Source: Ptychodera flava
Taxonomy: Eukaryota > Hemichordata > Enteropneusta > Ptychoderidae
Assembly: GCF_041260155.1 (NCBI RefSeq)
Contig: NC_091930.1
Location: 15,384,656-15,448,655, forward strand
Direction of reading: 5' to 3'
Length of the DNA stretch: 64,000 nt
The position numbers and the translations under genes are program-made. The notes under the pieces are model-generated. The model saw nothing but the letters and a program-made list of their open reading frames with translations. It searched no databases and had not been told where the DNA came from. Positions 1 through 53,239 of this stretch are shown here, piece after piece. Positions within the stretch are counted from its first letter, which is position 1. Every line of letters starts with the position of its first letter.

Positions 1-1552
1 AAATCGGGGAAAAAAGATCAGACCTCTAGCTGTATTGGCCAGCCAAGAAATACATATGTGCATAATAAATGAGGTACAAGATGTGACATCTTAAGGTCTA
101 CTATCCTATCAAAATTGAAGTGTAAAGAACTTGTGGTTACTGAGTTATGCATATATATGCATATTCAAGGTCAAAGGTCATCAAGGTCACGTGACATTTT
201 GAAAAAAAAAACATTGTATTGCTAATTAATCCATATATGCCAAAATCCAGACCTCTAGCTCTATGGCTTGCCCACAATTATATATGGGCATAATTAACGA
301 GGTAAAGCATGTATTGTCATAAGGTCTCCCATCCTACTAAATATAAAGGACATAGCACTTGTGGTTACTTATTTATTGACATAATCGTGTATTTTACATA
401 AAAGGTTATTGAGGTCACATGACATTTTGTCAAAAACTTTCTATCCTATAGTCTGTCCCTATATACTAAAAATCATGCATTTACCTCTATTGGCTTGCTC
501 AAAATTAGATATGCACATAGTTAATGAGGTATAATATGTGGCGTCATAAGGTTTCCCATCATACCAAATATGAAGGGTGTAGCACTTGTGGTTCCTGAGT
601 TATGGACAAATATGTATATTTGAGGTCAAAGGTCATTGAGGTCACGTGACATTTTTCAAAAAAATTGTATAGCTAAGTTATCCCTACATACCAAAAATCA
701 GACCTCTTGCTCTATTAGCTCGCTCGAAATTAGATATGTGCATAATTAATGAGGAACAATATGTGGCGTCATAAGGTGTCCCATCATACCAAATATGAAG
801 GGTGTAGCACTTGTGGTTACTGAGTTTGGACAAATATGTATATTTGAGGTCAAAGGTCCCGAGGTCACGTGACATTTTGTCAAAATAATTGTATTGCTAA
901 GTTATCCCTATATACCAAAAATCAGACCTCTAGCTCTATTGGCTCGCTCAAAATTAGATATGTGCATAATTAATGAGGTACAATATGTGGCGTCATAAGG
1001 TGTCCCATCATACCAAATATGAAGAGTGTAGCACTTGTGGTTACTGAGTTATGCACAAATATGTATATTTGAGGTCAAAGGTAATTGAGGTCACGTGACA
1101 TTTTGTCAAAAAAATAGCATTGCTAAGTTATCCGTACATACCAAAAATCAGACCTCTGGCTCTATTGGCTCGCTCAAAATTAGATATGCACATAATTAAT
1201 GAGGAACAATATGTGGCGTCATAAGGTGTCCCATCATACCAAATATGAAGGGTGTAGCATTAGTGATTACTGAGTTATGGACAAATATGTATATTTGAGG
1301 TCAAAGGTCACCAAGGTCACATGACATTTTGTCAAAAAAATTGTATTGCTAAGTTATCCATATATACCAAAAATCAGACCTCTAGCTCTATTGGCTTGCT
1401 CAAAATTAGATATGCACATAATTAATGAGGTACAATATGTGGCATCATAGGGTGTCCCATCATACCATATATGAAAGGTTTAGCACTTGTGGTTACCGAG
1501 TTATGGACAAATATGTATATTTGAGGTCAAAGGTCACGTGACATTTTGTCAA
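1..1552. repeat. ~225-bp tandem satellite, about 7 units
   Basis: The same phrase (gacctctagctctattggc, then a gcataattaatgaggtac-like stretch, then a ggtgtagcacttgtggttac-like stretch, then aggtcaaaggtca...cacgtgacatttt) returns about every 224-226 bases near 22, 248, 474, 698, 922, 1150 and 1374. The array is cut by the window start. Units in the middle are closest to one another; the first two are more diverged. Each unit ends in a block with AGGTCA half sites and a CACGTG E-box (or a CACATG variant). No open reading frame of note crosses it. It probably belongs to the same mobile or satellite unit as the repeats that follow up to about 2341. Confidence 0.93.
168..193 (+). promoter_or_regulatory. 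DR1-like AGGTCA repeat plus E-box inside the satellite
   Basis: A perfect AGGTCA-A-AGGTCA direct repeat with one-base spacing lies at 168-180, followed by a third AGGTCA at 184-189 overlapping CACGTG at 188-193. Further perfect DR1 copies lie at 623-635, 1298-1310 and 1524-1536; other units have one-base variants. DR1 is the known binding pattern of RXR, HNF4 and COUP-TF type nuclear receptors. Whether anything binds here is inference; the arrangement itself is plain in the sequence. Confidence 0.5.
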
Positions 1553-1721
1553 AGCGTCTGAGATGTCTGCGTGAACGGATGGACTCACATGGATGGACTG
1601 ACGGACTGACATGACCCAATCTATGAGCCCCCGGACTTTATCTGTGGGGACTAAAAACTGTGTCACTGCATCCTTTTTGCAATATGAATACGATGAGAAA
1701 CTAAATTTTTATTTTTCGTGG
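1553..1721. repeat. Linker between satellite and minisatellite
   Basis: Unique-looking segment starting gcgtctgagatgtctgcgtg. A close relative, gcgtctctgagatatctgcg, recurs at about 2071-2090 after the minisatellite, so the two tandem arrays are each followed by the same short module. This suggests that the whole 1-2341 block is one compound repeat or two related elements side by side. Confidence 0.5.
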
Positions 1722-1956
1722 CCTTATACATGGGAGTCTATGGATTGCCTTATACATGGGAGTCTATGGATTGCCTTATACATGGGAGTCTATGGACTGC
1801 CTTATACATGGGAGTCTATGGACTGCCTTATACATGGGAGTCTATGGACTGCCTTAAACATGGGAGTCTATGGATTGCCTTATACATGGGAGTCTATGGA
1901 TTGCCTTATACATGGGAGTCTATGGATTGCCTTATACATGGAGTCTATGGAGGCGA
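1722..1956 (+). repeat. 26-bp minisatellite, 9 copies
   Basis: Unit cttatacatgggagtctatg + gattgc (26 bp) repeated about nine times with very few changes (gatt/gact, tata/taaa). Because 26 is not a multiple of three, long apparent reading frames run through in two frames; these are repeat translations, not genes. High identity between copies suggests recent expansion. Confidence 0.95.
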
Positions 1957-2254
1957 AAACTAAAAAGTCCTCTAACACGGCCAAATTTGATCACATTGTG
2001 AAACAAATCAACGTGCATCTGTATGAGGTAGAGTACTATCCTTTTACCAAGTTTGAACGAAATCGCTCCAGGCGTCTCTGAGATATCTGCGTGAACGAAA
2101 AAAGTCATAAAATATGCAAATGAGCAATTAATTAATAAGCCACACCCACCAAAATCTAATCAGATCTAAGTCTCATCATGATAATACCAAATACCAAATT
2201 GCATGACATTGGACCTAAGGGTTCTTAAGTTATGAGTGGAACAAAATCTGTCTA

Positions 2255-2341
2255 CGGACGGACGGACGGACGGACGGACGGACACACACACAGACATTGT
2301 GGCGACATAGGACACCTTTGGTGCTTCGCACCACGGTGTCC
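2255..2341. repeat. GGAC microsatellite and terminal-looking hairpin
   Basis: Six GGAC units (about 2257-2281) run into a CA tract, then a hairpin at 2310-2341: ggacacc pairs with ggtgtcc, and tggtgc with gcacca, around a ttc loop. A tetranucleotide tract followed by a strong hairpin is a common end structure of non-autonomous mobile elements in invertebrates, so this may be the right end of the compound repeat that fills 1-2341. Confidence 0.55.
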
Positions 2342-3085
2342 AAAAATGGCATTAATGGATCTTTTATAGTTAGCCCATGAAGGACTATTCCAATGGCAGA
2401 CTGTCATTACAGTGGAGTAACATTGAATATCTTGGGTAGTCATAGAAAGGTAGACACTGGGTTGTGGAAAGTGCATTGAAATCACAATGGTCATGTTATA
2501 CACTTTTCGCCAACATCTTTGTACTTGGTATCTGCTTTTATGCTTCGTACATCTTCCAGATCATTCATGTTTATATTTGCTTTAGTGACAATTGTTGCTG
2601 TTTTTGTTCAAAGTGTGTTCTATTTTGATCTGCCTTGGAGTATGCATCATTTGGAAAGGTATTGAGGGTCAGTAACTGTACATAATTTGGCTATTTTTTA
2701 GTATTTTGTGATCTGTGTGTTTCACTTGAAGTTCTTATTTTACTCAGAGTATGATGAAATGCACAATATTGAGCTGTTAGACTAACTTGGAGATGTGCAG
2801 TGAACACTGTCATCATTAAAAATAATTCATGTCTAAATCAATGCTTCAACTATAACAGCACTGAATGAACTTGTAGATTGTTTATAAGGTTTTTGGTAAT
2901 TCATCATTCTTTGAGATTAAAATAGCACAAACACAATACTGAAAAGTTGCTGTAGGTGTTACAAGTAGGAAATCTTGAATATATGTTATTTTGTTTGTTT
3001 ATTATTTATATATTTATTTGTTTATTATTTTTTCAAGAATGCAAGAATGTTGTTTTCACTAATGCATATATTAAAAGTTAAAAGG

Positions 3086-3167
<82 letters not shown>

Positions 3168-4136
3168 TGTGTAAACTTTGTACCTATGTAATCTTTCTTT
3201 TTTGGGGAGGGGGGGCCACAAAAATTTTGTTGCCGGTGATGGGGGTGCCTGTAAAAATATATGCACCACATATTTTCTCTTCCAGCCCCCCCCCCTCCGT
3301 TAATTGTGCTCGTTCCCTTATCACTGTGAATATGATGTTTTAGAGACTACTTTGTTGGTGCTCACGAATATGGTGATGTTAATTTAGGAGACAAGTCACT
3401 AGAAGATGATATGGTCTTGAATTTTACGTGTTGAATTCTGGCTATGGTGAAATTATAGGGTTTTGTGCTGGCATAAATGTATGATCATCATGTTTGCTGT
3501 AAGATGGTACCAGAATAAGCTGGAAATTAATTCTGTAAATTGAACACAACCTATCTGTTTTTCAAAACTTCCCAGATTGTTGAAACAATCATTATGCCAA
3601 TGTAATGGGCAGCATTATGATAATATAACAATATCAGGTAAAGTAGGGCATAACATTCCCAAATCTTTGTGAAAAATTAGTAATCGCTCAAGGTCCATGC
3701 ATGAATATAATTCCACTGAAAGAGGAAAAATGTTTCCAAGGAATGTAAAGTTTCCCCAAAATGTATGAGCCAGTTGGGGCTTTTGCTTTTGTTTCGGCCC
3801 CACCATAATCCCTAAGATATAATTGGTTTCTGAAACATAAACCCTGGAAATTGCTTGTCGTCTCAAGAAACACACAAACTCTGATAACATATCACTGAAA
3901 CATATCTGTTTGATCCATTGTCGACATTCAAAGTTTATCTTATGTCTTTGATTCTATAAAATCAGTGAAAATGCAGAACAGAACTATCACTTCTACTGAA
4001 AACAGATGATGTGTACTACCGGTAGTATAGCCCTGATGCGAAGTCCATGCTGAAGAAATGTCACAATCATATCACATACAATTTTCTTGTTAATTTGTCA
4101 CAGATTCCATAGATACTCTAATGACAATATAAGGCA
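2342..4136. other. Gene-free AT-rich stretch with a TA/TG microsatellite
   Basis: No coding sequence recognised. A (TA)n(TG)n tract lies at about 3088-3173; the apparent reading frames over it on both strands are made of its dinucleotides. A G-run and a C-run flank it (3207-3216, 3285-3295). The frames at 3615-3890 show no known domain. Confidence 0.6.
3088..3173. repeat. (TA)n(TG)n compound microsatellite
   Basis: About 15 TA units followed by about 27 TG/GT units with one interruption. Such tracts mutate quickly. Confidence 0.97.
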
Positions 4137-5305
4137 TTAAAGCTGCAAGCAGCGTTGGCGGGGCCCAAGCGGTTAATCATTTGACCTATCGAAATGTCTT
4201 TTACAAACTTGAAAGACATAAGCCTAAGGATGACACAAGTAACATTTCAGCTGAACTGGTGTTTTACTTCTGGAGAAGAAACTTTTTAAAGAGTAAATTG
4301 GTATTTTTCGAAAATCCAATATGGCGGCCAAATCACGTGACGGATCCAAATATCTTTCGCAAACTTGAAAGATATCAGCTTAAGGATGACATGAGCAAAG
4401 TTTCAGCTCAATCGGTGTTTTAAGTTTTGAGAAGAAGATTTTTAATGAGTAAATTGGTATTTTTCGAAAATCCAATATGGCGGCCAAATCACGTGACCGA
4501 TCCAAATGTCTTTTGCAAACTTGAAAGGGATCACTCTGAGGATGACATGAGCAAAATTTCAGTTCAATCGCTGTTTTTATTCTGGAGAAGAAGATTTTTT
4601 AAAGATTAAATTGGTATTTTTCGAAAATCCAAGATGGCGGCCAAATCACGTGACCGATCCAAATGTCTTTTGCAAACTTGAAAGAGATCACTCTAAGGAT
4701 GACATGAGTAAAATTTCAGCTCAATCGGTGTTTTGGTTCTGGAGAAGAAGATTTTTGAAGATTAAATTGCGATTTTCGCAAAATCCAAGATGGCGGCCAA
4801 ATCACGTGACCGATCCAGATGTCTTTCGCAAACTTGAAAGAGATCCCTCTAAGGATGACATGAGCAAAATTTCAGCTCAATCGGTGTGTTGGTTCTGGAG
4901 AAGAAGATTTTTAAAGATTAATATGGTATTTTTCGAAAATCCAATATGGCGGCCAAGGTCACGTGACCGCATGCAATTTTATTTGCCAATTCTTTAGACC
5001 TTAGGTTATGCTTGCTATATAAAAAATTTCCAACTGACTAGACCCCTAGGTCAGCAGGAAATGCCATTTTTAGGTTTTCGGAAAATCCAATATGGCCGCC
5101 AGGTCACATGACCAATCAAAATTTTAAGGATAATATGCACGAGAACCCATAAGTAGCTATTAGCACTGCAAGTTTGAGAACTTTCTGTCTCTGAGATCAA
5201 CAGTGACAAAAAAGGGACAGTAGAAGAAGAAGATGAGGAAGAAGAAGAATATTGAACTCCAGTAAAACCAATAGGGGCCCACGCCGGTAGGCTTGGGCCT
5301 CTAAT
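4137..5305. mobile_element. Helitron-like or other non-autonomous element (candidate)
   Basis: The left end reads ttaaagctgcaagcagcg and the right end gcttgggcctctaataa. Near the left end lies ggcccaagc and near the right end its complement gcttgggcc. At the right end GGCCCA (about 5277-5282) pairs with TGGGCC (about 5294-5299) as a hairpin, followed two bases later by CTAA and then T, which is the layout of a Helitron 3' end. The left end does not begin with the classical TC, so a Helentron-type or unrelated element is possible. The inside is a ~157-bp tandem repeat plus an AGA-rich tract at 5222-5250. No transposase frame is present. Confidence 0.5.
4185..4975. repeat. ~157-bp tandem repeat, about 5 copies
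   Basis: A unit with the phrases gatgacatgagcaaaatttc, ggagaagaagatttttaaag, aatccaagatggcggccaaa and tcacgtgaccgatccaaatg recurs with starts near 4190, 4341, 4500, 4658 and 4815. Reading frames through it reach 128 codons only because the unit is poor in stops. It lies wholly inside the candidate element above. Confidence 0.9.
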
Positions 5306-7261
5306 AACATATAATGTGAATAACAGTAAAGGTTTACAACATATTCCTGATAGTAACAGGTATGCTCATGTGATATACTTACTGCTTTTTTTCATTTTTT
5401 TGGTTAAAATGACACCTTCGTAATGCAATAAAACGTTGAAATTTTAATTGATAATCCATTTTATGGTTAATTAAATTGGATATCTGTTGATATAAAATAC
5501 GTAACACTAGTCATTGGTGGAAGTGCGTATAAATGGTATTTGACCAGAGCAAGTTACCCTGTATATTGATAGAAATGGCCCTGTGCAGTTTCCAATAAAC
5601 ATGAGTGTATTTACTTTCACAGCCAAGAACATTTGAAGTCCCTAGTGCCAAAATGGCAAACATACTGCATTTTCTTGGCATATATGACTGGTTTTCAACA
5701 AATACAATATCTCTAAAATGCACCCCCTTCCTGGAAGTTTAACCGATGCTTACTCATACATTTACTGTATGGAGCCACCTTTGCTAGAATCTAATAAGAG
5801 CGTATCATTTCATACAAAATATAAGGAAATAAAGCTCTTCAGTGACAGAGAGTTTTGAGAAATGCAACACTGTAAACCAGTGGAGAGCGGGTACACTATG
5901 TTTCATTGCAGAAGTATGTCAAGTATCACTGAGTAAAATTTCAGGGGATTTTGAGCAACAGTGCCTCTCATGATTTTAGGTACCACTAAGCAATTGTTGA
6001 TCCAAGTGAATATTAGAGTAAAAATGACTGAATACTTTACTCTATATGATTGATCTCACCGAACTATTAATTTTCAAGTTCATATCCATAACGATAATCC
6101 TGTCGTATCATTGGAAAGAAGCTGGAACTGACCGCGAGTGATGGAACTTATTAATTGAATACGGAAGCATTGCTTGGCCTAACGGCCCAGCCGCTTATAC
6201 ATGAGTCTGCCGGTTGCTTTGTTAGTGTCTCTGCCTGAATTATTCCTGTCTCCTGTGTTGAGTCTTGGTCACTCAACAAAGGAGTGACCATGGTCCAAGT
6301 TGGTCTTTTGTGTCTGCGTCCATTTATAATCGTGGTTATGTCGGATACCGTCGCCATAAAGAATGCAATAAGATGATATACAATACTTTTGATTTCTCTC
6401 CCGACGTTAAAAAAGATAGAAAAGTACAACTTATCACTTGCCCGTGCATGGCATGCTACAAAATTCTTTTGTTTCAAACGGCTCAATATTATGATTGGTT
6501 GAAATACAATAGAACATTGTGATAGTACACAGAATACATCCATGACAAAGATAAGTTGCTGAGTGAATTTTAAATGTGCAAACTAGTAAGACAATGTTGT
6601 CGATACCGTACAGGTATTTCATAGCGCCAGTATTGTTAGAGTCCAAGTTGAGAGGAATTGCGAGAGTGCAAAATATTATGTTTCTTTGCGGCAATTTGGA
6701 AGATTATGACCAGGCGAGGTAATATCCGCTGGCTTTAAAGAAACATTGAAAACCAGGTGCATGCACGCTACGAGTACTACAAACATTGAATTTATTGTTT
6801 CTTCAACTGTTGTATGTAAATTCGTTTCTGTATTATACTTTGCTCTAGCATTGATTCGCGTATTATTTTGATCAGTCAAGCAAAGTTTGCATCGGAATGA
6901 GAGAATTTCGGCTGCTTGAAATTTCAAAACATTATAAGCTTTATCCATCAACCTATATCCTTCGATATTTAAGCTCGATTATTGCTGTCTATTGCCAACC
7001 GAGATTAGATTGTGCATTTTCACAGCAGAATACCAGCGGTGAAATGATGATTCATTCTGTTAGCATTTTGAAGTTTGTTGAAACACTCACAAACCGACAA
7101 ATTACGATATCGTTAATGCTGAATTCGATTTGCATAAAAATCATCATACTCATATTTCACATGATATCACCTGCAACTATGGCAGAGTTGGTAAGTTGAA
7201 GAATGGGTTTATCGTAGCATAAGCTTAACTGAACTAACCTAACTAGCTAAATTGAACTAAC
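5306..7261. other. Stretch without a supported gene; possible 3' part of the minus-strand gene
   Basis: Because the exon at 7262-7684 ends in a donor site, the minus-strand gene must continue at lower coordinates, so at least one more exon should lie here or beyond. A possible terminal coding piece is the minus-strand frame around 6172-6355, ending in a stop near 6172, with mixed polar composition; I found no convincing acceptor for it. On the plus strand, ATGGCAGAGTTG at 7180 is followed at once by a consensus donor gtaagt, which could be a tiny first coding exon of another gene, but nothing supports it further. Confidence 0.3.
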
Positions 7262-7684
7262 CTTCCTCAACTCGTCTCACATCCAGGTACACTTCTTTTG
7301 TTTCTTCGGGGATTTCTGCTTCACGGACGATATTATCTGCATACGCTGATAACTTGTCAGTTTTCTTCACCATTTCAGGATGATTGATTTCCAAGTTTCG
7401 GGCCTCCGTCTTCACACCTACAAACTTACTGAAGATAGTATTTAATTTAAGTTCCTCTACTCTGTCTCCCTCAACTATCACCGTTTGTAAATTTTTCCTT
7501 CTTCGACCCTTGTCTCTATTCTGTGATCTTGTCATCCAACCACTTATCGTAAGTTTGTTGACCTTTGCCTCCAGGTCTTCGTTCTTCTCTGTTATCTCGT
7601 CATCTGACAATAGATTTACATTTTCCACTTGTGTGAATTCAGAGTCATCTGCTGGTCTGATCTGCTGAAGCATCCTGATAGGAT
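7262..7684 (-). CDS. Internal exon, charged helical segment of the TRADD-N-like gene
   Basis: The exon starts after a good acceptor (ttgtttttaacag) and ends before the donor gttagt. Length 423 bases, phase 1 in and phase 1 out, open throughout. It encodes about 141 residues beginning DPIRMLQQIRPADD, with an acidic first third (EITEKNEDLEAKVNKL), a basic patch (RDKGRRRKN) that could act as a nuclear or nucleic-acid contact signal, and an EK-rich tail (EAEIPEETKEVYLDVRRVEE). I recognise no domain; short helical or coiled-coil stretches are likely. It joins in frame to the exon at 8215-8454. It is not the last exon. Confidence 0.65.
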
Positions 7685-8214
7685 CTGTTAAAAACAACGA
7701 TTTGAAAACAATAAATTGCTATATTATTCATGATGGTGATGTTTACAGACTTCATCTTTCACCCAATGTGCTAACTACGTTAAAAAGCGAATGAAAAAAT
7801 ATGGAAATGTGTATGGTATGCACAGGATCGATGAATTGGTGGATGCACATCAGTATAAAGCCGACAAATGCTGGTTATTTAAATACTGGCACATGTAAGT
7901 GAAGGCACTACCATAATTTGCGATGCTGATCCTGACCGAAATATCGATGATGCCCGAGCCACAAAAAAGTATCTTTACACTATGAAAATATATCGTGCAA
8001 GAGTTCCTGGCGACTGTACGATGCGTGTGCTCGCCTCGAACTTGCCTCTTAACGGCTAGCGCGTAGCGGGCAAGGGTCGAAGGCAATAGCAAATCGAACC
8101 ATTAATATCTCTTTTTTGGAATGTCATGTGGCGGAATTTTAGCCAATCACAAGATCAGTACTATAGGTGAGGTGTAATAAATATATTTGTTGTTCCAATT
8201 GTGGGGTAATATAC

Positions 8215-8454
8215 CTGTCGCCGACTCCTGTACGTGCCTTTGGTGTTCGATCTGTCGCCTGTCTTCCTTTTTTTTCAAAAGCTTGTCGAGCATGGCTATC
8301 TGGGCCTCAGTTACTGTGTCTCCCTCTCTTCTGAAAGATTGCAGGAGATATCTGGCCTTATTCACTCTTGTCGGTGAGCTCTCTGTCTCCTCTGTCTCTA
8401 TGTCCTGCGCTTGATCAGTATCTCGTTTTTGCTGAGTATCCTGCGAAGCTAGTC
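8215..8454 (-). CDS. Internal exon, helical linker of the TRADD-N-like gene
   Basis: Acceptor ctgtacatgtag and donor gtatat bound a 240-base exon, phase 1 at both ends, open throughout. It encodes about 80 residues, from LASQDTQQKRDTDQAQDIET to a helical stretch RYLLQSFRREGDTVTEAQIA and KLLKKKEDRRQIEHQRHVQE. The amino half is acidic and polar, the carboxy half strongly basic and probably a single long helix. It follows the TRADD-N-like exon directly and keeps its frame. No known domain was recognised. Confidence 0.65.
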
Positions 8455-8942
8455 CTACATGTACAGATAGAGGAAAGTATAATGTACTCAGTGCGGGGTC
8501 AGATTGATAAAGATTTAGGCAAATTAATGTTGGTAGATGTAAAATAGACATTTCGATATTCAGACAACAGCAGTACTTAAAGGCATGCTAGGTTTGGCAA
8601 ACATAAACCAAAAGACAGACTTGTTGAATCATGAAATAGTTTCTTTTCAGTTGCTGCAGAGTTTATCATGGGTAAAATTGATGTGCACTGTATTGTGGTT
8701 TCATTATCTACCATAGCTTTAGCTCCATATTTGACATCAAACAGTCACCATACGTTTTATTTCAGAATAATAAGAAATTTCATGTTACTCCATATTACCC
8801 CAAACAACGTGAAGATTTGAATGCATACAGCAGTCACAGCAATACAAAATGTAAAAATACGTCGAGGTATTAAATAACACCACAACCTACACAAAAAAAA
8901 GTGTAAAGAATGCAACAGATATTGCATAATGTGCATATTTAC

Positions 8943-9381
8943 CATATTTTTGGATCAGTTCCTGTCTACACAAGAAATACTCTTCATAGTCAATGGTTAC
9001 ATCAATTGCCAGATAAAATGCCCCTATTTTATCAAGGAGTTCATCAGACAGGAATTTTCTTTCCATTATGTCCTGGAGTGTACCATTCTCATATTTTCTC
9101 ATTAGGCATTCCAGGGCATCTAATGACTGACAAGACATTGTAAAGGAAATACTTCCCTGACCAGAACCCTTCACTTTGATCTCATCGTGTTGCCCATCAA
9201 GCGACTGACCAGCTTCTTCAGTCTTCTCCTTGACTTCATCACTTTCATAGAAACCTCTTTCAACTTCATTAACTGTTCTTCCTTGCTCAGGAACGACTTC
9301 GCTTACTCGAACCGTAACCTTTATGTCTCCTACAACAGCCAAGGGCACAATTTGTTTCAGCTCTTGTGACCCAAAATACAT
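8943..9381 (-). CDS. TRADD-N-like domain exon
   Basis: The exon encodes about 146 residues; its 3' end is a clear donor (aaatatg then gtaaat). Residues about 71-142 read GSGQGSISFTMSCQSLDALE, then a short helix, then FLSDELLDKIGAFYLAIDVT and IDYEEYFLCRQELI. The pattern beta strand with small polar residues, helix, 'LSDELL', beta strand 'LAIDVTIDYEEY', helix is that of the ferredoxin-like TRADD-N fold, known from the amino end of the animal adaptor TRADD and from expanded families in invertebrates and in prokaryotic conflict systems. Its role would be protein-protein contact in cytoplasmic death or immune signalling. The amino third is polar and acidic. The upstream border is uncertain: an acceptor tgtttag directly before ATG gives phase 0, while one ten or more bases downstream (cacaag) gives phase 1 and fits a fusion with the exons upstream. 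Confidence 0.65.
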
Positions 9382-9637
9382 CTAAACACTAATGGAAACA
9401 GAAGTCAATTGAACTTCTGATCTCAACACACTGGACAAAAATCTAGCGCGTTGATATCAAAAAATCAATTGACAATCAGCTACCAACACTGATGAATTTC
9501 AATGCGAAAAGGGAAACCGACAGTATTCACGGAAGCTGACTCTTAAGTAATATCAACGCCCTGCATTGTATGAAAATTTGATGCAGTTTACAATAGACAA
9601 TGTTATTTGTAAACAGATTAATGGAGACCATACAAAC

Positions 9638-9709
9638 CTGGTTCACGTTCCTGTGATTTGCTATTTCTGGATATTTTGTGAGAGTCTTGATTATGGCTGG
9701 TTTCACCAT
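9638..9709 (-). CDS. Small exon upstream of the TRADD-N-like exon
   Basis: A 72-base segment ends in a consensus donor (aaccag then gtttgt). Two readings are open. Read from ATG at 9709, with a good initiation context (aagATGg), it gives MVKPAIIKTLTKYPEIANHR plus four residues, ends in phase 0 and joins in frame to the ATG-beginning TRADD-N exon: this makes it the first coding exon of a separate gene. Read as an internal exon after the acceptor ttatcaag in phase 1, it gives a polar linker (GETSHNQDSHKISRNSKSQE) that would connect the glycosyltransferase-fold exon, which ends in phase 1, to TRADD-N. A transcript would decide. Confidence 0.5.
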
Positions 9710-9831
9710 CTTGATAACATGTAAATAAATAAATAGCTAAATATATAAAACAAATTTTTCCTTTTTACTAGGAAAATAAGAAAGCGATCATAATGTGCTA
9801 CACCAAGACTTCAAAAAAGCTAGTATATAAG

Positions 9832-9949
9832 GGAGTGGTCAGTTTCTTCGGCCTGGGGGGCGGTGGATTATTTTTTGCCCACGTCAAAAAGTGGCTGACC
9901 CCCTATTCCGAATGAAAAGAGGGTGACCCTTACTATTCCAAATTTCGAA

Positions 9950-9950
<1 letters not shown>
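9832..9950 (+). repeat. Dispersed repeat fragment, 'agggagtggtcag' family
   Basis: Begins aagggagtggtcagtttctt, followed by a G-rich stretch and ggtggattatttttt, then agaggGTGACCC-type phrases. Related pieces occur at 32117-32226 (plus), 20881-21014 (minus) and about 29960-30012 (minus). All share an AAGGGA start, a G-run, and repeated 'GGTCACCC/GGGTGACC' phrases, so this is a dispersed family. No coding capacity is visible. Confidence 0.6.

Positions 9951-9951
<1 letters not shown>

Positions 9952-10031
<80 letters not shown>
9952..10031. repeat. (AT)n microsatellite
   Basis: About 39 uninterrupted AT units lying in the intron or intergenic space between the glycosyltransferase-fold exon and the TRADD-N exons. 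Just before it (9823-9950) is a piece of a dispersed repeat beginning aagggagtggtcagtttctt. Confidence 0.97.
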
Positions 10032-10035
<4 letters not shown>

Positions 10036-10689
10036 TTTACATACATTTATATTTTAACAGTCATTCTGGGTTTTAATGAAATTGTTGACATGTCAGTTGT
10101 AAGATAGGAATTTCAAAGTGTCAATCTTGAACTTTGAATACAGTACATTTTTAATGAGTTGTGAATGTATTTCACATTTTCTATGCTTAACCAGATGTCC
10201 TGATAGAAATGGATGTCAATCATTAATATCAAAGAGGAAAAAGCACTGAGTAAATCAAAAATTTTGATGGGTGTTAAGACTTGCCAGCCATCCAATTAAA
10301 TCTCCTGAGGAGCCATAGAGAGGCATTTTAGCTAAATCTGATGTGTGCAGTGTCTGAGATGACCTTTTCTTGTAACATTGAAACCATAAAAGCAAAGCTA
10401 ATAATGACAATCTGCCTTTTAACTGTTATTTTAGTCATAAAAAAGCATCATTCAACAGAAAACCTGAGACACAAAGGAAAACAGTTGCATCAATGACAAT
10501 GAAAGATATCTTGTCATTTTTCTATCTCTAAAATAAGTCACTTTATCAAATATATATTGTGAAATATTTGTGCATGTTGCTTTCTCATACTGAATTCTCA
10601 TACAGAGAACAGAAAAGTATCAGGAATTTGTCATGCTTTTCATATGAAATGCAGATTTCATAACGGTACACTTTCACTTAGCAAAAATC

Positions 10690-10870
10690 AAGATATCTCT
10701 GGCATATATCTCTGATTTATTACAGTATGGCGCCCGAAGGGAGCGGAGAAAAATATGAAACATCCTGATACCTCTGATATATATTTCTCTTATATTAAAG
10801 TCATGCACAGGAAGGGCGTGCTGAAAAATGTCTGATATATATTAAAGTAATGTGCGGCGGGTTTTTAACG
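10690..10870. repeat. Degenerate tandem repeat, about 3 units
   Basis: The phrases 'ctctgatatat', 'ttaaagt(c)atg', 'gaagg(g)c/gagc' and 'gaaaaatatg/gaaaaatgtc' return two or three times with spacing near 55-70 bases. It lies in the 3' flank of the glycosyltransferase-fold exon. Confidence 0.45.
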
Positions 10871-11070
10871 TCGGTGCAGGTTGCTCTGAGCTGAGATATT
10901 TTAATAATTTTGTAATATGCATAGCTTGTCGGACTTTCCAAAGGGTCTGAACTTCACGCAACAATAACTAAACATAATTTGATAGGAACTGATGTGTTCT
11001 CGATTATACATGTAACATAACGACCATTGTAAAATTTTCAACTTAAAGTGAACAATTTTTTGCACAATAC

Positions 11071-12343
11071 CTTTTGTTTTGGTAAGAGGGGACTGTCTCT
11101 GTAAGGCAACTTTGTATTTCTGCTGTGCGTCACTTTGGACCACCTTCAAAAAGACGTTGTTAATATCTTCCAGCTCTTGTTGCACCTTGTTCTTCATTTC
11201 CTTCTTGATGTCCTCGGCCTGATTAAGGGCGATCTGAAAGTTGCACAGGAATTCCATGATACGCTTCTCCAAAACATCGGCATGGTTCATATCCACGACA
11301 AGCCGTTCTTCACGGTCAGGTAAATGTCCCTTGATCAGTTCATGACTTTGGGAGTCGCGAGGCACTATAATAGGAACGCCAGCACACATAGCGGCCAGTG
11401 TTAGGTTGACATAATGTACAGAAGATGGAGGAACAAGGACCAAATGGGATTGTCCAAGCTCATCGTTCAATTCTTCAGCTGATGGCATTCGACGCAGTAT
11501 GACCTTCAACTTCGAATGAGGATTCAGAGTCTTTATAAGATCGGAATCACCGCGCTTCGGTACTCCAAAAATTTTCCATTTAGGAGGTGATTTCCCATCC
11601 TTGTAGAACAGATCTGCAACAGAGTTCATGGCCTGGACGATAGCACTGTCACTTTTCAGATTTTCGAGTTCATCTTCTTGAAATAACGACAGGATTTGCA
11701 ATGTTGTACCTTTCTTGACAGGCCTTGGAGAAGGAATGTCGAAAAATTCATCATCTACCATTTGAGTTAATCTGTAGTGTGTTATCTTCGGAGGTTTTCG
11801 ATACATTGTCTCATACTGTTCGAAAATGCTACTCCCAACAGAAAAGACGGAGGTTGCCGCTTTGCTTTCTTTTGGTATGTTTTTGCGGCGAACCTCAAGC
11901 TCTGGGATGACGCAACTTGCAATCACTGGGGTAATGAGATCTTTATCATATAGATTTATCAAGTAGAATGCTGCTCTCGGAAAGACATCCTTTTCAATTT
12001 TGAATGCGGCGTCGGAATTGATCATTCCAAACCCGAAAACGAATCTAACATTTGCCAACTCTTTCAAATTAGGAAAGTAATCTTCATGGCGATACAGCCA
12101 ATCAGCATTCGGTATTTCACCTCTTGACTTGAACTTTGGTATTGGTGATGGTGCTATGAACTCAACACCATATTCTTTGGCTTCCTTGATTTCTGCTTCT
12201 GTAGCTGTGAGAGCGGTGCAATAGACGGACAACCCTAATTCACGGAGAAGACGGATTAATAGATGAACAGTATCTGTTACTCCTCCCTGGATTGGACCTC
12301 CCAAGTATGACTGAGGATCAAGGCCTTGTTTCCCATATGCTTC
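11071..12343 (-). CDS. Large exon encoding a GT-B glycosyltransferase-like domain lacking the catalytic glutamates
   Basis: The acceptor ttctttcttgccctcctacag and the donor aaaag/gtattg bound a 1273-base open exon (about 424 residues, phase 0 in, phase 1 out). Residues 14-160 form an amino Rossmann half with the glycine-rich GGPIQGGVTDTVHLLIRLL that GT4-type enzymes use near the acceptor site. Residues 212-350 form the carboxy half with ILSLFQEDELENL, IFGVPKRGDSDLI and VLVPPSSVHYVNLTLAAMCA followed by GVPIIVP and SHELI. In active GT4 enzymes this last motif carries two glutamates eight residues apart (EX7E). Here the aligned positions are Val and Ala, so catalysis is doubtful and a sensor or binding role is plausible. 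After it comes a basic and acidic helical tail. An ATG upstream exists only inside the intron-like pyrimidine tract, so earlier exons must lie at higher coordinates; none was found with confidence. Confidence 0.75.
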
Positions 12344-13544
12344 CTGTAGGAGGGCAAGAAAGAACACAAATGTTTGTACTTAACATTTTTGATGACATTG
12401 ACACGACTAGTAAAGTGACTAATGGTAAACAAACCATATTAATGTTCGGGAGATCTTCTGACACAAAAGTCTGTTCTGGGCAATATACAAGCCATAGGTA
12501 CAGTGTGAGCGGTTGTTTATTTTAATAACAGTCAATGTAGATGAATGGTAGCATATTATTCCGTGCATCTACGATTATAGATGGTTCGTTTATAAAACAA
12601 AGCATCCAAATGAATTTGAAAATGTACAGCTCCAAAATGGTAGTATTATCAACACATTTTACTCTATTATGTTAACATTTTTGTTCTTACTAAGTTTCAT
12701 AACCTGCCATGGATTTTCAGTATGCAAAGCGCAATTGAATCCCCACACACTTATTTCATTTTGAAAGTTAAATCATAAATAAAAATGCTAAAAAATACAG
12801 CTAGTGAGGATTTAACATAAAAAAGATACGTAAATACTGAGTATCTTTAAAACTATCCGACGGAAATCCAAGAAGTGAGCAGAACATTTTTCATGTGATC
12901 AAACGTCTACTGCTTTGACATATGTGGAAGTCCTAAAGTGAGGGATATTGCATTGCAAGTATTCAGTGTTCGAGGCTAGTTAAATATTTAATTGTTTAGG
13001 CAGAACCTTAAATAATTCCCGTAGATAGTGACTTGCAATTGGCGATGAGGATTGTGTCTTAAGGGAGTACAATGGTGGAGAATCCGCAATGGTATATGTC
13101 GAAAATGATAAATCCCCAGTATGAGTATAAAACTTTGCAATGCGGTTTTAAAAGATAATGATAAGTTTGGTTTCCACTGGTAAGAGTACTTTAAGTAGTT
13201 GTATGTTTGTAGTATGTGTCACTTGAAATACGAATGGATGGTCATATGAACACAACGTGCGCATACAAGCCTGATGAGTATACAAATACACAATATTACT
13301 AGCTACTATAATTTTTCTTAAAGATTTTAAGTGATTTTATAGCTGCAGTGTGGAAGAGAGGTCATCTTACATATTACGTATTTTCTAACTAATATTTTAT
13401 ACGTCAACGTGTGGAATAAACATAAAACTACGCGGTATTTTGATAGCTTATTCGAAAGGGATTACGTTGGCTTCTAAAAACACCGTTACAAGTAAAAATG
13501 GTGTCACATTTAGTGGTCCCTAAATCGCTGCAAGTCAACCACAA
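12344..13544. other. Gene-free stretch upstream of the GT-B exon
   Basis: No coding frame with support. It probably contains intron sequence of the minus-strand gene. Composition is AT-rich with no repeats seen. Confidence 0.5.
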
Positions 13545-13559
13545 TTATTGAGGCATATA

Positions 13560-13679
<120 letters not shown>

Positions 13680-13684
13680 ACCCA

Positions 13685-13806
13685 TTCGTCGAAAAATCGT
13701 ATATTCTGTTGCGCCTCGAGAACATATTTGAACTTTAAAACCTTTCAATGCTTTTTCTACCGCTTGCGGGGCTCCTTTGAAGCTGTTGACTCGGAAGGGC
13801 AAACTT
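13685..13806 (-). CDS. Possible small exon (weak)
   Basis: The minus-strand frame reads SLPFRVNSFKGAPQAVEKAL then KGFKVQICSRGATEYTIFRR and ends in a donor-like gtgagg right where the GA-rich face of the microsatellite begins. Composition looks protein-like. The acceptor (aaaaaataag) has no good pyrimidine tract. In phase it could follow the exon at 14672-14943. No domain recognised; it may be chance. Confidence 0.2.
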
Positions 13807-14671
13807 ATTTTTTGCAATAATGGGAAATTTTACTTTCAAGCCGGGATTAAAGCACCTACTTCCTGAAGGGACAAAGTCACTCTTTTTTAGCCTTTTTGTG
13901 ATGTTGTTTTATATCGAAAAACAGTTTCTGTTTTTTGACTTCTCGAAACACGCTAAAATAATGGTCAACTGCGCACAACCTCAACTTTGCTTGCAGCCGG
14001 ACAAATTTAACATTAAGATTTATTTTACGGTCTCTACTAAAAATTCAAGTTTCGTGCGAAACTGCCACGACCATGCACCGCAGAACATACACTGTTACAA
14101 ACGTTTGGACTTTATGCAAGGTTTTGTAATAAAATCTTAATTGGCAGTGCTTTTCATGTAGATAAGAATATCAGCTTATTTATATTGCGGCTATGTTAAT
14201 TTTTCATAGGAAGGCAAGTAGGAAATAGAAAATCCGTTTTGTTTAGAGATTACAAACAAAATCAACCGTCTGCATTCACCAATTGTGTAATATTTGACCC
14301 TTTTGCAGTTATGCACTACCACAAAGAGGTCAATAAAGGGACTTTGCCCCTACAAAGAAATTACGGCCGTAAACATAAACTGACCAGACTTGTCGGACAA
14401 TATACCTCAGGGCGCATTATTAATTCAGTGTCAATTTCCGAAAAAAACATTGTGATTCTGCCAGAAAGAATCATTCTAGTTTACGGCTACATAGCATAAG
14501 AAATACTCGAAAAACATCTGCATAGCTTGAAGGTATAGAAACACCCAAATATTTCGTATTTTGACACAATGATTACTATCAACATTGAAAACATTCCTAT
14601 GTAGTCATGATAAAACTCTCGATTTGATCTCTCGCGTGTCGTTGATGTCCTCAACATTTAAATTGGCTTAC

Positions 14672-14943
14672 TTTGGCTTTTGTTCCTCTTCTGTCTTCCT
14701 TCGTTTTCGTTTCGATGTACATGGACTTGAAGGAGGGCTGGTATCCTCACATTGTTTTTCTGGCTTGGCTTCAGTGCCCTTGTCGTCCTGCGGGTGACCT
14801 GTGGCAAATGCAGACGGCCCCATGGCGTTAACACGCGCAATGGCGGCGTCGGTGGCAGCCGCAATTCGCCTACGATCACGTTCACTGTACTCACGGCCAT
14901 CGTCATCGCCTCCCCTTTGACTATGACGTTGTGTACTTAACAT
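14672..14943 (-). CDS. Possible first coding exon, Arg/Ser/Lys-rich protein with nuclear signal
   Basis: From ATG at 14943 the frame gives MLSTQRHSQRGGDDDGREYS, then ERDRRRIAAATDAAIARVNA, and ends with a basic cluster SKRKRRKTEEEQKPK. It stops exactly at a strong donor (gtaagc at 14671), leaving phase 2. GC content and CpG density are above the surroundings, as is usual at 5' ends of genes. The basic cluster resembles a nuclear localisation signal. The frame is open further upstream to 15042, so the start may differ. A perfect CRE-type palindrome TGACGTCA lies about 560 bases upstream at 15501-15508. I do not recognise the family. It could be the start of the minus-strand gene that runs to 7262, but the phases do not fit directly. 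Confidence 0.4.
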
Positions 14944-15042
14944 GATGCTCGTGAATTCTGATAAATTCTCTGGAGAACGCAACACGCGAGTGCTTGTCCC
15001 GGCGTCAGTGTTCTGGGCTGTACATACGTTGGCGGATGTCAC

Positions 15043-16015
15043 TAACTCGTTTGAAGTTAATATTTATACAAAATTTATGACTCACTAAAATGCAACTTTT
15101 CAAAGGACCATGTTATGCGTCAGAGCGTCGAACTATCTCATTTGGCTTGTTCCCGTCATTGATGTGAAATTAAATTATCAATGCAGTATTAAAAGTATAC
15201 TTTCAGAAACGCAATAATGATGATTTCGTAGACTCACACCCATTTCGCGGTACCACCTGGCCATGTTGACGATTGATGATGATGATAGTGATTGTGACTG
15301 CTTTTGTTGTTGCTGCTGAATTTGTTTTGATTTTATGTAATCGGCGTTTTACCAAACTTTTAATTTGTCTTTGAAAATTTTCTATTACCTATCAGAAATA
15401 TCACAGTCGGAAGTCTCCATAAGTTTTGCCTTGGAAGCGTGATGTTTTCACAACATATACAGGCAACCTGTACGCAGTAGCAGTCGTGCCATATCGCCGA
15501 TGACGTCACACAGTAGCTCCCATGAGCCTTTTTGCGCTCTGCTCGGGACGTTTATGCGATTCAAGCCAGGATTTATTAAATACTTTTGGGAGTACGGAAA
15601 TCGAAAAATTGACTGGAATATTGTTTTTCCTTAATGTAGACTTTGCATAATGAATAATTATATTTCAATATACATTTCAGAAAGACAGTGAACAACGTAT
15701 TTCAAAAAAGAAGCTTGTTAAGCTGCAATATTTTCAAATTAGAATTAATTGGCAACATATGCATTGCCTTGAACCACATGGAAAATTTTCGAATATCAAT
15801 TCATAAACAGAGTAATGATGTGACAATATCATGTTTACTGCATTTAAACCTTGACACTGGTGAATTTGCGCTGGCCAATTCATTTGTTTATTTAAAACTC
15901 CATAAAGATATCACAGCAAATATATATCGAAGCAAATTCGATATACAAGCGCAGACTTTTATAAAGTAATTGAGAAATTTACATACACAGTCCTTTTTTC
16001 TACTGTTACGTTTGG
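15043..16015. other. Putative upstream region, no gene seen
   Basis: Contains the TGACGTCA palindrome at 15501-15508 and moderately CpG-rich sequence near 15440-15560. The plus-strand frame at 15688-15969 has no recognisable domain and AT-rich codons. Confidence 0.4.
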
Positions 16016-16077
16016 CGTAGCCCTGCTTACGATGCTGTGTCACGCCGTGAACACACAGTATCGTACGCAGGGCTACG
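16016..16077. repeat. Imperfect hairpin, ~25-bp arms
   Basis: The arms begin cgtagccctgc and end gcagggctacg, with about three mismatches over 25 bases and a loop of roughly 12. A single arm-like piece, tgtacgcagggcta, appears again at about 28456-28469, so this is probably the end of a dispersed foldback element. Confidence 0.7.
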
Positions 16078-16407
16078 TTAGGCGATGATTCTTGGCACCC
16101 TTTAAAGTTATTAACACTTTGTACAAATGAGTGTTTTGGTGCTCCAAGCATGTATTCACTTTGATGTTATGTGAGTGTTGCATGGTCGCGTTATACAGCT
16201 TCAACCAGCAGCAGTCATAACTGTGTTGGTCAGGAGTGGGATTGGTGACCTGTCGTAATTCTTGTACAAATACCGGAGAATGGTGCTCCAAACGATAAAC
16301 TCAGACTAGAAGTGAATTAGAAAATAGAGTCAACACACTGCAAAACTCGTAAAAAGTGTTTTTGGATTATTGCCAGTGATGAAAAGGGTAGCAATTGCAG
16401 TGCCAGT

Positions 16408-16570
16408 GCTAGCTGCAACAATTGTAGCCAATGGGCTGTGCGTCGGCCGGCTATTTCTGACGTTTTGGCTGTGCAGCGCCGTCCCGTGTCTACAGGCCGG
16501 CGCTGCACTAAGCCAGCACGTCAGAAAAAGCCGGCGCTCAGCCCGTGGACAGCCTATCATTATTACAGCT
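16408..16570. mobile_element. Foldback/MITE-like inverted repeat
   Basis: The segment 16433-16480 and the complement of 16498-16544 match closely (gggctg, ggctattt/gctttttctgacg, gtgcagcgccg), and the match continues more weakly outward to about 16408 and 16570 (tagctgcaacaat / complement of attattacagcta). Arms of about 70 bases meet around a ~16-base loop. No coding capacity. Target duplication not resolved. Confidence 0.7.
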
Positions 16571-18530
16571 ACATATGTCAGTGCGAAATACGAGCACTGT
16601 GAATCATTGACTCAAGTATAGGTTTGGTGGACAGCAATTTTCGTGTCCGCGCTGTGCCGACATAGGTTAATGACGACAAAGTCGAGGAACCCAACGATCT
16701 TATGATTAATATGGATTATAAGAGGCATTTTCGCCCATAAATATCTAAATTATTCAGAAGCAGTTTGAATTATGCCCGTCGACACAAGTTGGCATAACTC
16801 GTCGAAATGAGGAGACCCGGGGAGGAAACATAGAAAACAAACATCAGCCGTGAATGGTTATATGCAAATTATAGGCCCTGGTATCATCATAACTCTGTTG
16901 TTTAGTGAGAGAGGAATTCTTGGCTACAGTTTAATGCCTGTGTTATCAGTACCATGGACTGAGTGCTACAGGTCATGTGAGGTCATGAGACTGCGTATGT
17001 TTGCGTTGTCGTCAATATCACAGTGATAAATACTTCTGCTTTGCATTTGTATAGGTCAATACCTAGCTAGACGGGTACTTCAACAAATGTACGTCATTGG
17101 TGTTCCAGCCTGTTTGTAAAACACAGCTTCTTGCTCTACTTCGGAACAACATCGAGATGCCTAGTGTTGGACAAAACCTGTATGTCTGTATAGTGATATG
17201 GTATTGGCAAAAATGGAATTTCAGCCCAGATTTGAATACACTTTTCAACTGCAACACGGCATATTGTTGAAAGTGCGTTGTACTTCAAAGGCAACGAATT
17301 TTTATTTTGCAGCGGTTTATTTTATTTTTGACAAAGTTAAGGGAGAAGGGGAAGAAAATTTATTTATTTACAAAATGAATTAAAACATAATGTTTTCTGC
17401 ATTTAAATGTCTGTTTAAGGTAAAATACATCAGGGGTATGTAGGGGACTGATTTCTCCTGAAGTGTCTATCAGGAGCAAACAGCAAATCTTTTCCTGCAG
17501 AAGCTCTTCGTGATAAATTTTTTTTCGGCGGATGTACATTTTCCATCAACTAGCAGTAAATTGGCCAGGCGGGCAATTTTCTCTCATCATTAGCTGTCGA
17601 GAAAGATAATGTTCTTGGTCAACAGGCTACATGAACAAAGTCTCGGGCGTAATGAGCGACTTTGGAAGGTTTCAGCTGTTTTCAAGAGTTTTGCTAATTG
17701 GCGGCAAACAATTTTCATCTTCAACTTATGTTGTTAGGACATTTCTTTCCGAACTGGATCGCGGGACGGAGTTAAAAATAACGATGATCTTAGTCGTCCC
17801 AAATTTTAAAAAGTACATGGGAAAAGCGTGAGGAGGCATGTAGATCACAACAATGTTCATGATGTCACAGCAATTCCACTTCATCGAGACCTGAAAAAAA
17901 TAGTGGCGATTTAACTTCTACATTGCATTCACCAAAGTTGTTTTTTTTATTTACATGTTTATGTGATAATATCTTTGTTTCAGATCAAAGAAGTAACATA
18001 CAAATTTTAACGTACCATGTATGAAATAAATTATGCAACTTAGGTAGCATGCATCTCAAAAGTGAAAGATTTAAACTGTTGCTAAAATTTTCCTCAATGA
18101 ATCTTTCAAGCATTCTCTTTCAAAACCAAGAATAAAAATATGGGGGAAAGCGTGTAAATTTTGGTACTCAGGCAGCGAATTAAATGTACCGATAAAATTT
18201 AAATTAAAAATTGTCGCCATCCCTACGTTTACTCAATGGAGAAAAATTAATTTTGTATTTTCAATAGACTAAGGGCTTCAAAATGAGTCGACACAAATGA
18301 TAGATCAGAAAAGTATTGGAAAAGTTTGAGAGTCTGAATATCTGTCCCAGAGGCGTATCCGTAACACATCACGTATTAAAAACCTTGACGTTTTGCGCTC
18401 CAGCTCTCTGTAAAAAGTTCATTTTTGACACTATTGTGGATGGAAAAGAATACTTGTAGGTATTATACTTATACACTGCCCATTTTACAATTACAATTAT
18501 TATATTTACTGACAAGATGAAAATCTAGAT
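16571..18530. other. Gene-free AT-rich stretch
   Basis: Short frames only, none with a recognisable domain or splice support. No repeat structure seen. Confidence 0.5.
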
Positions 18531-18740
18531 TTATGCGCAGCATAAAGGTGACATAAAGTTGCATAAAGATAATCTGTAATCATTTTTATGCAGCATAAAG
18601 ATGGAACTTTATGCACCTTTATGCTTGTGCATAAAAGCGTTTAGTGGCTGACTAAATTTAATCACCTTTATGCAGGACATTACAGATGCATAAAGATTCA
18701 CATTTATGCATCAACCTGATACATCTTTATGCACAACATA
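18530..18740. repeat. TGCATAAAG-motif cluster, copy 1
   Basis: At least ten near-perfect copies of TGCATAAAG or its complement CTTTATGCA lie in both orientations within 210 bases, so the segment is an imperfect palindrome. The sequence around gtttagtggctgactaaat matches, inverted, the stretch near 36020-36050 in the second cluster. Probably a small non-autonomous mobile element. Confidence 0.7.
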
Positions 18741-18849
18741 AAGAAACATATTCAATCTTCTGTAATTTGGATCTTGTAGGTCCAAATATGAACCTGATTG
18801 TTCTGTTTTTGCACCTATTGTACTGTAGTTCTGCACTCATTAACTACAT

Positions 18850-19045
18850 TAATATCATTGTTGTATTAACTACTTTGCACATTTAACCCATCTAACATAC
18901 ACACATATCTACCAAAGCAAGATCATAGAAGAGGTATCGGTTTTAATTGTTTATTTAAAATAGTTAAATAGGAAATCACATGGGACAAAAAATACAGAAT
19001 AAATTCCTCAAAACTTCCTCAAAAATACAATATACTTCATGTGAA
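18850..19045 (+). repeat. Dispersed repeat, inverted partner of 31055-31265
   Basis: Complementary to 31055-31265: both contain agatcatagaagagg-like, tttaaaatagttaaatagga and gatcttgctttggtagatat-type phrases in opposite orientation, and both run through a gaggaagttttgagg/gaggacggttttgaag phrase. The copies differ by many substitutions and small gaps, so the duplication is old. Confidence 0.75.
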
Positions 19046-20354
19046 AAACAAAAAATACACTTATTGTTTTTTTCTCAGATGCAATATTGAAGTGTCAACC
19101 AAGTATCTGAGAACTGATTTAACTTGACTCACTTTACACAGCAATTATGGCTTTAGTTATAACAAATAAATAATAAATCTATTGTTCTCTAAGATTTAAA
19201 ATAAAATTGGATGTACCGGGTGTTTTGATGTCTAAGTAGAAAAGAGACTCCACATTTAGCTATGTTTTGTGTTGCATTGCTAGTATCTATTACAGATCAC
19301 ACATGATAATGAGTTCTGCCATATCATTGAAAATTGCCATACAAATATTTTGATTACAACCTAGACTCGAGCTAAGATTCAAGCACATTGCATGTACATA
19401 AAGCTACAGTGTTGCCAAAAATAATTGTAGTTGTAAGTTGGTGTACTTAATCTGTAAAATTTGTTTGCAAAGATGCACCTCATTTTTAACACATTGTTCA
19501 TGAAATATCAAATATGGCCACTGAAGAGACTAAGACAGAATTATTGGTCTTTTAACTCAGCCAGTAATCGGTCGAGTACAGTCCACATATTCACACATGT
19601 ACAGCTTTGGGTATTCAGCTTAAATCACTGATTATAACTCAGTTGGTGTAATAACATATGGAAAGTGTTCCCAGTTGGACTTTCATGAGTACAGCCTCTG
19701 TCTGGTTAACAAAATTCAAAAGTTGAGTGGTCTTTGTTCGAAACTAAAAATACATCACTAAGCCTTTGGCAGAATCAAGAAAATGTATAAAATATGCTTA
19801 TACATGTACATTAAACATTGTCCTGTATTGAGTTGTCAATGCTGCTGGTATTGTCATGTGTCTGTCAGGCTCTGATCTGATTGATACCAGGCCCTAAATG
19901 CAAGGTAGCCTCAATATGCATTTCCTTTGATGCATGTGTTTTTCCATATGCAGTTTCACTTCTTTCTCTATCCCATGGCAAGAGTCTCCGAATAAAGGCA
20001 CCACCGTTGCAACTTCTGTCATGTTCGCTATCCTCAGAAGAAACACACACAACTATCAAAATGTCTTCAGCTTGATGCTAGTCCTTGGATAGCCCAGATT
20101 GTATGTATTTCAGTTCCTGAAAATAATGATACACAGAATAAATCATCAGGACTGTACATCATCAATTTTGTTTGTTTTGTTTAAATCCGTGTATTTATAG
20201 ACATTTGATGATTCATTTTAAAGTACTTCACTAGACAAGAATGGTTAAAAGTTGATATGTATGCAAGAAATTTGATTTCTGAATTTCACTGAAATGTTGA
20301 TTCACTATACATTGGAGTCTATGAGAAAACTATGAATAATTCACAAACACAATT
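19046..20354. other. Gene-free stretch
   Basis: No supported gene. AT-rich; the overlapping frames at 19865-20075 on both strands have no recognisable domain. Confidence 0.5.
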
Positions 20355-20467
20355 AGACTGAAAGATTCCGTTGCATGCGAGCGTTCCGGTGCATTGCGAC
20401 CTACCTGGTAAAGGGTCGCAGGTCGCAGTGCGCCGGAGCGCCCGCACACGACGGAATCTTTTAGTCT
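20355..20467. mobile_element. Foldback element, 48-bp arms
   Basis: Left arm agactgaaagattccgttgc... and right arm ...cggaatcttttagtct are complementary over about 48 bases with roughly ten mismatches, separated by about 17 bases. The arms are GC-rich (gcgttccggtgcattgcgac) against AT-rich flanks, which marks an insertion. No coding capacity. Confidence 0.75.
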
Positions 20468-20880
20468 TAACACAATCGATGCTTTCTGAGGTGTTTGACA
20501 ATTGATACAAATGTATTTGATTAAATTACGGTGTTTGAAGGTTCAGATGTGGACAACACTTTTGATATTTGAATTTCAACTAAACCTATTTCACTTTTCA
20601 TGGTACTAGTGGTCTACAGGTCACTTAAATATTTCCCTGACAAAAGTTGCTATATCTCTAATACGTAAGTAATAGAAATTGTTCATTGCCCTCCATGAGC
20701 TCGATTTACAATAAGACAAGTCTCAGAGTTTCAACAGCAAGATGTTCATGTGACAGATAATTATACTTTGTTTAGATTTACAGTTAAATGACTACCAAGA
20801 GTGAAATCATGCGAATCATTTTATCTCCCAGAATATTTTTGAACACTAAAACTTCTTTTTAACAGGACAACTACTTATAA

Positions 20881-53200: not shown

Positions 53201-53239
53201 TGATCAGCCAATGAGTGCTCATGCTGCAAGTGGTGCTGG

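Follow-up and report, generated by a model that had tools for sequence, protein, structure and literature searches.

A gene of immune type is proposed on the minus strand of a 64,000-nucleotide stretch of the hemichordate Ptychodera flava (NCBI RefSeq assembly GCF_041260155.1, contig NC_091930.1, positions 15,384,656 to 15,448,655), hereafter the window. In our reading, to which we assign a probability of roughly 0.55, a single transcript would encode a catalytically dead glycosyltransferase (GT) domain of the GT4-conflict type, a TRADD-N-like domain and a charged tail, with the GT domain kept as a binding surface. The initial annotation had described the region as a pseudo-glycosyltransferase fused to a TRADD-N adaptor, and the tests agree with this description, in that the catalytic residues are missing and an in-frame join of the GT and TRADD exons is possible. 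The layout had also been presented as new, which is not borne out, as GT4 ahead of TRADD-N is published (Kaur et al. 2021, eLife; PMC8195603, drawn on here in part). The combination of domains is already known; what this member adds is an eroded catalytic site.

Affiliation and catalytic site of the glycosyltransferase domain

The open reading frame (ORF) at 10901-12379 on the minus strand matches the Pfam family GT4-conflict (PF20706) with an E value of 7.8e-27 and a score of 94.7 bits, the aligned part being positions 11-376 of 385; the cut-off of this family, 26 bits, is lax and was passed by 14 of 14 control genomes. The general GT4 models of Pfam reach only E 0.067-0.074 on the same ORF. 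Bacterial relatives with PF20706 were collected from 296 genomes belonging to the same phylum as a Streptacidiphilus, of which 32 have a match at 1e-25, and from 293 genomes of the order of one such relative, 21 of which have a match at 1e-45. By our own division, the conflict set comprises the 25 proteins that score above 280 bits with PF20706, and the other, ordinary GT4 are loci below 106 bits, represented by 47 rows, namely the ORFs of 46 loci (L118-L168 minus five) whose match to the family profile reaches 1e-4. A GT4-conflict copy split over frames (genome G002, loci L117 and L126) was excluded from the family alignment, and L128, which equals L120 in length and ORFs, from the comparison set. 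The tree uses 40 of the 47 other rows, those with a stretch of at least 250.

The window GT scores 62.4 bits against a hidden Markov model of the 25 conflict rows, and no match is reported against a model of the 40 other GT4 rows. The tree groups it with the conflict set with a support of 100/100; the window branch is 4.81 changes per column long, and the letter make-up of the sequence is unusual. On these comparisons the domain is closer kin to the bacterial conflict type than to the other GT4, an affiliation that is well supported, while its exact placement is not. It shares with the bacterial GT4-conflict proteins (among them L137 and L179) the profile family, the GG loop and Lys230, but differs from them in its active site, as the compared members retain the two His, the Arg and the E-x7-E pair that the window copy has lost.

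The Glu pair, the Arg and the Lys of GT4 enzymes bind the sugar-nucleotide and serve catalysis. In the alignment of the 25 conflict rows, His105, His130, Arg222 and Glu317 are each found in 25/25 and Glu309 in 24/25 (one Asp), and the window carries Phe, Asn, Gln and Ala in place of the first four and Val in place of Glu309. Lys230 and the GG loop, both present in 25/25 conflict rows, are retained. Among the 47 other GT4 rows, both Glu of E-x7-E occur in all 47, the Arg in 43 and the Lys in 45, with two gaps at each of the latter, and the His105 column holds 32 His, 3 Asn and 12 gaps. An active GT4 is recognized by E-x7-E together with the donor-site Arg and Lys; the window has Val309, Ala317 and Gln222 at three of these positions and keeps Lys230 alone. 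Because the acidic pair and the Arg have been lost within an intact frame, a pseudoenzyme is favoured over a pseudogene, and the sequence of the window copy is probably that of such a pseudoenzyme.

An active effector, in which GT4 would still act as a sugar transferase despite its altered residues and TRADD-N would release it to modify molecules of the invader or the host, is an unlikely alternative in our estimate. It would agree with the published reading of metazoan GT4-TRADD-N proteins, where GT4 is predicted to be an effector that modifies invader molecules (PMC8195603), and with the retention of the GG loop and Lys230. It has to contend, however, with the loss of both acidic catalytic positions, Arg222 and His105, the two Glu being invariant even in the 47 other GT4 rows. 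Section 15 of the same paper holds no statement that GT4 is inactive, and of the 24 places in the paper that contain 'inactive' or 'catalytic', none of the 12 inspected concerns inactivity of GT4.

Exon structure and the TRADD-N-like domain

The minus-strand exons (Table 1) look real. Splice sites were scored with a matrix of general metazoan frequencies, to which the bit values given for acceptors and donors refer. The GT-B exon is open across 424 codons plus one base and so ends in phase 1, as had been annotated; its acceptor at 12343 (12.6 bits) is the highest-scoring one within 12500-7200, and the donor after 11071 is moderate (4.3 bits). Three acceptors are available for the TRADD exon, namely 9329 (8.4 bits, phase 1), 9381 (4.3 bits, phase 0) and 9362 (0.9 bits), and the second site above 5.5 bits within the TRADD frame, 8961 (8.0 bits), is internal to the domain. 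Five acceptor-like sites further upstream in the GT-TRADD intron outscore 9329 (8.8-11.8 bits), but they cannot open the TRADD exon because a stop closes its frame just before 9381. A start at 9329 is therefore more likely than the start at 9381 that the initial annotation had considered.

The GT, TRADD and two following exons are 1273, 387, 240 and 423 bases long. The two exons after TRADD-N (8454-8215 and 7684-7262) both run from phase 1 to phase 1, as previously noted, and the wider proposal of symmetric phase-1 exons holds for these and the TRADD exon, the GT exon being 0-1. As the GT exon is 0-1 and the following three are 1-1, the GT-TRADD junction keeps the frame whether the 72-base exon is included or skipped. 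The latter had been read as 1-1; its length is indeed symmetric in any phase, but its acceptor is weak and its codon score indeterminate.

The codon score was trained on the GT exon alone, a small set of 424 codons, and set against those of 229 non-gene ORFs, each 60 amino acids or longer. The scores of the TRADD exon, the 7684 exon and the candidate first exon are each reached by 0/229 of these ORFs, and that of the 8454 exon by 6/229, with one wrong frame slightly higher (0.04 vs 0.017). The measure is blunt: the pol ORF of a BEL element, used as a mobile-element coding control, scores 0.034, and the best non-gene ORF 0.11. The top scores among the 229 belong to the coiled-coil-like ORFs at 37314-37571 and 37905-38135, both on the minus strand.

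At the 3' end, the 7684 exon has an acceptor of 7.9 bits and a donor-like site of 8.1 bits at 7262. Read-through past base 7262 gives GGT TAG and, with the AATAAA at 6796, suggests that the gene may stop at 7257 and that 7262 is perhaps no donor. When the candidate first exon and the 52-base exon are added, a single frame of 883 amino acids can be written, which ends in EG at the stop at 7257. The candidate first exon (14943-14672) is tied to the gene by its reading frame alone, and its assignment is tentative; it contains KRKRRK, which we take to be a motif resembling a nuclear localisation signal. The 52-base exon was considered as the source of the first GT strand and rejected for that role, as the GT profile score is 62.2 bits with it and 62.4 bits without. 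On this score it is beaten by 183 of 813 candidate upstream exons, without homology support, and it is kept only tentatively because the score is not raised. Two short-unit runs lie in introns of the model, an AT run at 9953-10035 between the GT and TRADD exons and a TCTC run with a TGTC-like end at 13563-13676 before the GT exon.

Table 1. Coordinates of the exons and other features of the proposed gene
Feature	Position	Strand	Remarks
Candidate first coding exon	14672..14943	minus	ATG at 14943; ends in phase 2; 90 amino acids, basic, low-complexity; donor 7.0 bits
Bridging exon, tentative	14406..14457	minus	52 bases; begins in phase 2, ends in phase 0; acceptor 8.3, donor 5.0 bits
GT-B exon	11071..12343	minus	GT4-conflict domain, catalytic residues lost; phase 0-1
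72-base exon, optional cassette, doubtful	9638..9709	minus	Acceptor 2.0, donor 6.1 bits; frame kept if included
TRADD-N-like exon	8943..9329	minus	Phase 1-1; PF20694 match E 0.0014; acceptor 8.4, donor 5.9 bits
Gly-Ser of the conserved TRADD-N beta2-beta3 turn	9151..9156	minus	GQGSISF at 9162-9142, aligned to GSI of 10 cyanobacterial TRADD-N
Charged, probably helical exon	8215..8454	minus	240 bases; phase 1-1
Charged, probably helical exon	7257..7684	minus	Last exon if TAG at 7259-7257 is used; otherwise phase 1 end at 7262
AATAAA, possible polyadenylation signal	6791..6796	minus	Pattern search

Two separate genes, a GT4 gene that ends after 11071 or is spliced elsewhere and a TRADD-N gene that starts near 9709 or 9381, seem improbable. 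The ATGs at 9709 and 9381 would permit a phase 0 reading, and the moderate GT donor and the several intron sites that outscore 9329 leave room for such an arrangement. Against it stand the in-frame phase-1 join to 9329, the best usable acceptor, the agreement of the domain order with the published fusions (PMC8195603) and the 72-base exon, which has no clear coding signal. A fusion of GT and TRADD is favoured by the phase-1 join from 11071 to 9329 together with the publication of this domain order in three animal groups. We consider it very unlikely that the locus is a relic, that is, a decaying paralogue of an expanded family that serves no function, whether or not it is transcribed. The long GT branch and the many family-invariant positions that have changed, catalytic ones included, speak for such a copy, but the exons are open, one 883-residue frame is writable, and the coding scores of the TRADD and last exons are matched by none of the 229 ORFs.

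The ORF at 8887-9381 on the minus strand matches the Pfam family TRADD-like_N (PF20694) with 19.1 bits (E 0.0011), a score below the family cut-off of 23.7 bits. Searched alone, the exon scores 8.4 bits (E 8.4e-5) against a profile built from 10 cyanobacterial TRADD-N. The uS motif of TRADD-N has been described, and the already published partnership of GT4 with TRADD-N raises the prior for this identity (PMC8195603). The exon 9329-8943 is a probable TRADD-N from its sequence, and is classed here as TRADD-N-like only.

Several observations weigh against our reading of a dead GT4 joined to a TRADD-N. The window GT retains 11 of the 26 columns that are invariant in its 25 relatives and has changed 15, so that the catalytic losses are part of a broad divergence; His130 is conserved in the conflict family only and not in the 47 other GT4 rows; and all 25 conflict rows come from one bacterial phylum. 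The very long branch means that the alignment carries some risk at single columns. With Lys230 and the GG loop in place, some binding of nucleotide or phosphate may persist, and Kaur et al. propose an active effector (PMC8195603). With respect to TRADD-N, three versions of the sequence score 19.1, 18.9 and 15.9 bits with PF20694 (E 0.0011-0.011), all of them short of the cut-off. The cyanobacterial profile finds no match with default filters among 1260 ORFs of the window, and without filters it is only suggestive: 6 of 5000 shuffled sequences equal or exceed the score, and the TRADD ORF ranks second of the 985 scored, behind the coiled-coil-like ORF at 37314-37571. The hhalign probability for TRADD-N is 1.7%, and an AlphaFold model built from this exon by itself, with a pLDDT of 38.9, gives no information on the RRM-like alpha+beta fold that a TRADD-N would have.

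The exons other than GT and TRADD have no Pfam match above cut-off. In the 8454-8215 exon, a CARD-like match to positions 35-66 of 85 (PF00619, E 0.048) is weak and below the cut-off, and a CARD identity was dropped on account of this weakness. This exon and 7684-7257 are probably helical, as judged from the sequence and not by prediction. No Pfam family is found at E <=1 in the three minus-strand frames of 1-7262, where leucine-rich repeats (LRRs) might follow TRADD-N, though short LRR exons may escape such a search and the window ends there. Upstream of the GT exon, the minus strand of 12344-22300 contains no Pfam domain above cut-off.

Searches for relatives of the exons were negative within their scopes. 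The GT exon has no match at 1e-2 in tblastn against plasmids, and the GT query none against genome contigs and none at 1e-5 in 244 genomes from the same phylum as a Calothrix; the GT, last-exon and TRADD queries found no relative among viral contigs. GT4-conflict gave no match at 1e-35 in 247 genomes sharing their phylum with an Arenibacter, and TRADD-like_N none at 1e-4 in 251 sharing theirs with a Thermoflexus, empty answers that do not show absence in either case. Inside the window, the GT, TRADD and two following exons match only themselves. Comparison of the exons with PDB sequences returned weak, unrelated matches only, and NCBIfam nothing above a cut-off.

Known GT4-TRADD-N proteins and a proposed role

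In cephalochordates, hemichordates and cnidarians, GT4 has been described ahead of TRADD-N with LRRs behind, and Acropora digitifera has more than 500 GT4 paralogues apart from TRADD-N (PMC8195603). No further paper on the pairing was found, as judged by titles and the starts of abstracts. Like these metazoan proteins, assigned to the DEDD2 clade, the window gene would place a bacterial conflict-type GT4 before TRADD-N in one animal protein. As far as their description goes (PMC8195603), it differs from them in a GT4 without catalytic residues and in a charged tail in place of LRRs, for which no profile matched across 7.2 kb of downstream sequence. With vertebrate TRADD and DEDD2, as presented in the same source, it shares a TRADD-N-type adaptor with the Gly-Ser turn; these proteins have a Death or DED partner, whereas none is significant in the window gene.

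The encoded protein would begin with a basic, low-complexity N-terminus (tentative), followed by the dead GT4-conflict domain, the TRADD-N-like domain and a charged, probably helical C-terminus, with the GT and TRADD-N-like exons presumably joined in one transcript. The dead GT may have been retained to bind a ligand or a protein or glycan from an invader, or to decoy whatever targets active GT4; its apparent loss of catalysis would suit a sensor, decoy or scaffold better than an attacking enzyme. In the published model, TRADD-N is pictured as a bridge that links its flanking domains (PMC8195603). Following this model, the GT domain would form the sensing or docking side, and binding would shift the interface of TRADD-N, which would act as the switch. 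The charged tail, as the recruiting side, could then recruit or oligomerise partners and lead to a cell-death or inflammatory response. A sensor-adaptor role, as initially annotated, is plausible and is strengthened by the loss of catalysis.

It is conceivable, if doubtful, that animal TRADD-N proteins more widely carry GT4 domains that are catalytically dead and act as integrated decoys or as receptors. In that case what was once a bacterial effector would have become the sensing arm of a cell-death adaptor. Plant NLRs have integrated decoys, and the logic would be comparable. Should the GT4-TRADD-N proteins of animals prove to be pseudoenzymes, the published prediction of an effector would have to be revised for some of them at least. 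These proteins would then be candidate intracellular receptors, with a ligand that can be searched for directly, and a bacterial conflict enzyme would have been reused in animals for binding instead of catalysis.

Other features of the window

The window has a GC content of 38.1% and contains introns and retroelements of the BEL/Pao type. Remnants of a BEL/Pao retrotransposon extend over several separate ORFs at 52408-57140 on the plus strand, with DUF1759, Peptidase_A17 (E 1.4e-50) and DUF5641. A reverse transcriptase fragment at 60235-60600 on the same strand (RVT_1, E 6.3e-16) probably derives from a LINE. The 143-residue ORF at 40649-41080 on the minus strand has no Pfam match at 0.01 and presumably, from our impression of it, resembles part of a Penelope-type element. 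Tandem arrays occupy 13-1536 (226-base unit), 1721-1951 (26-base unit) and 4175-4969 (156-base unit), the latter two of which yield long repetitive ORFs.

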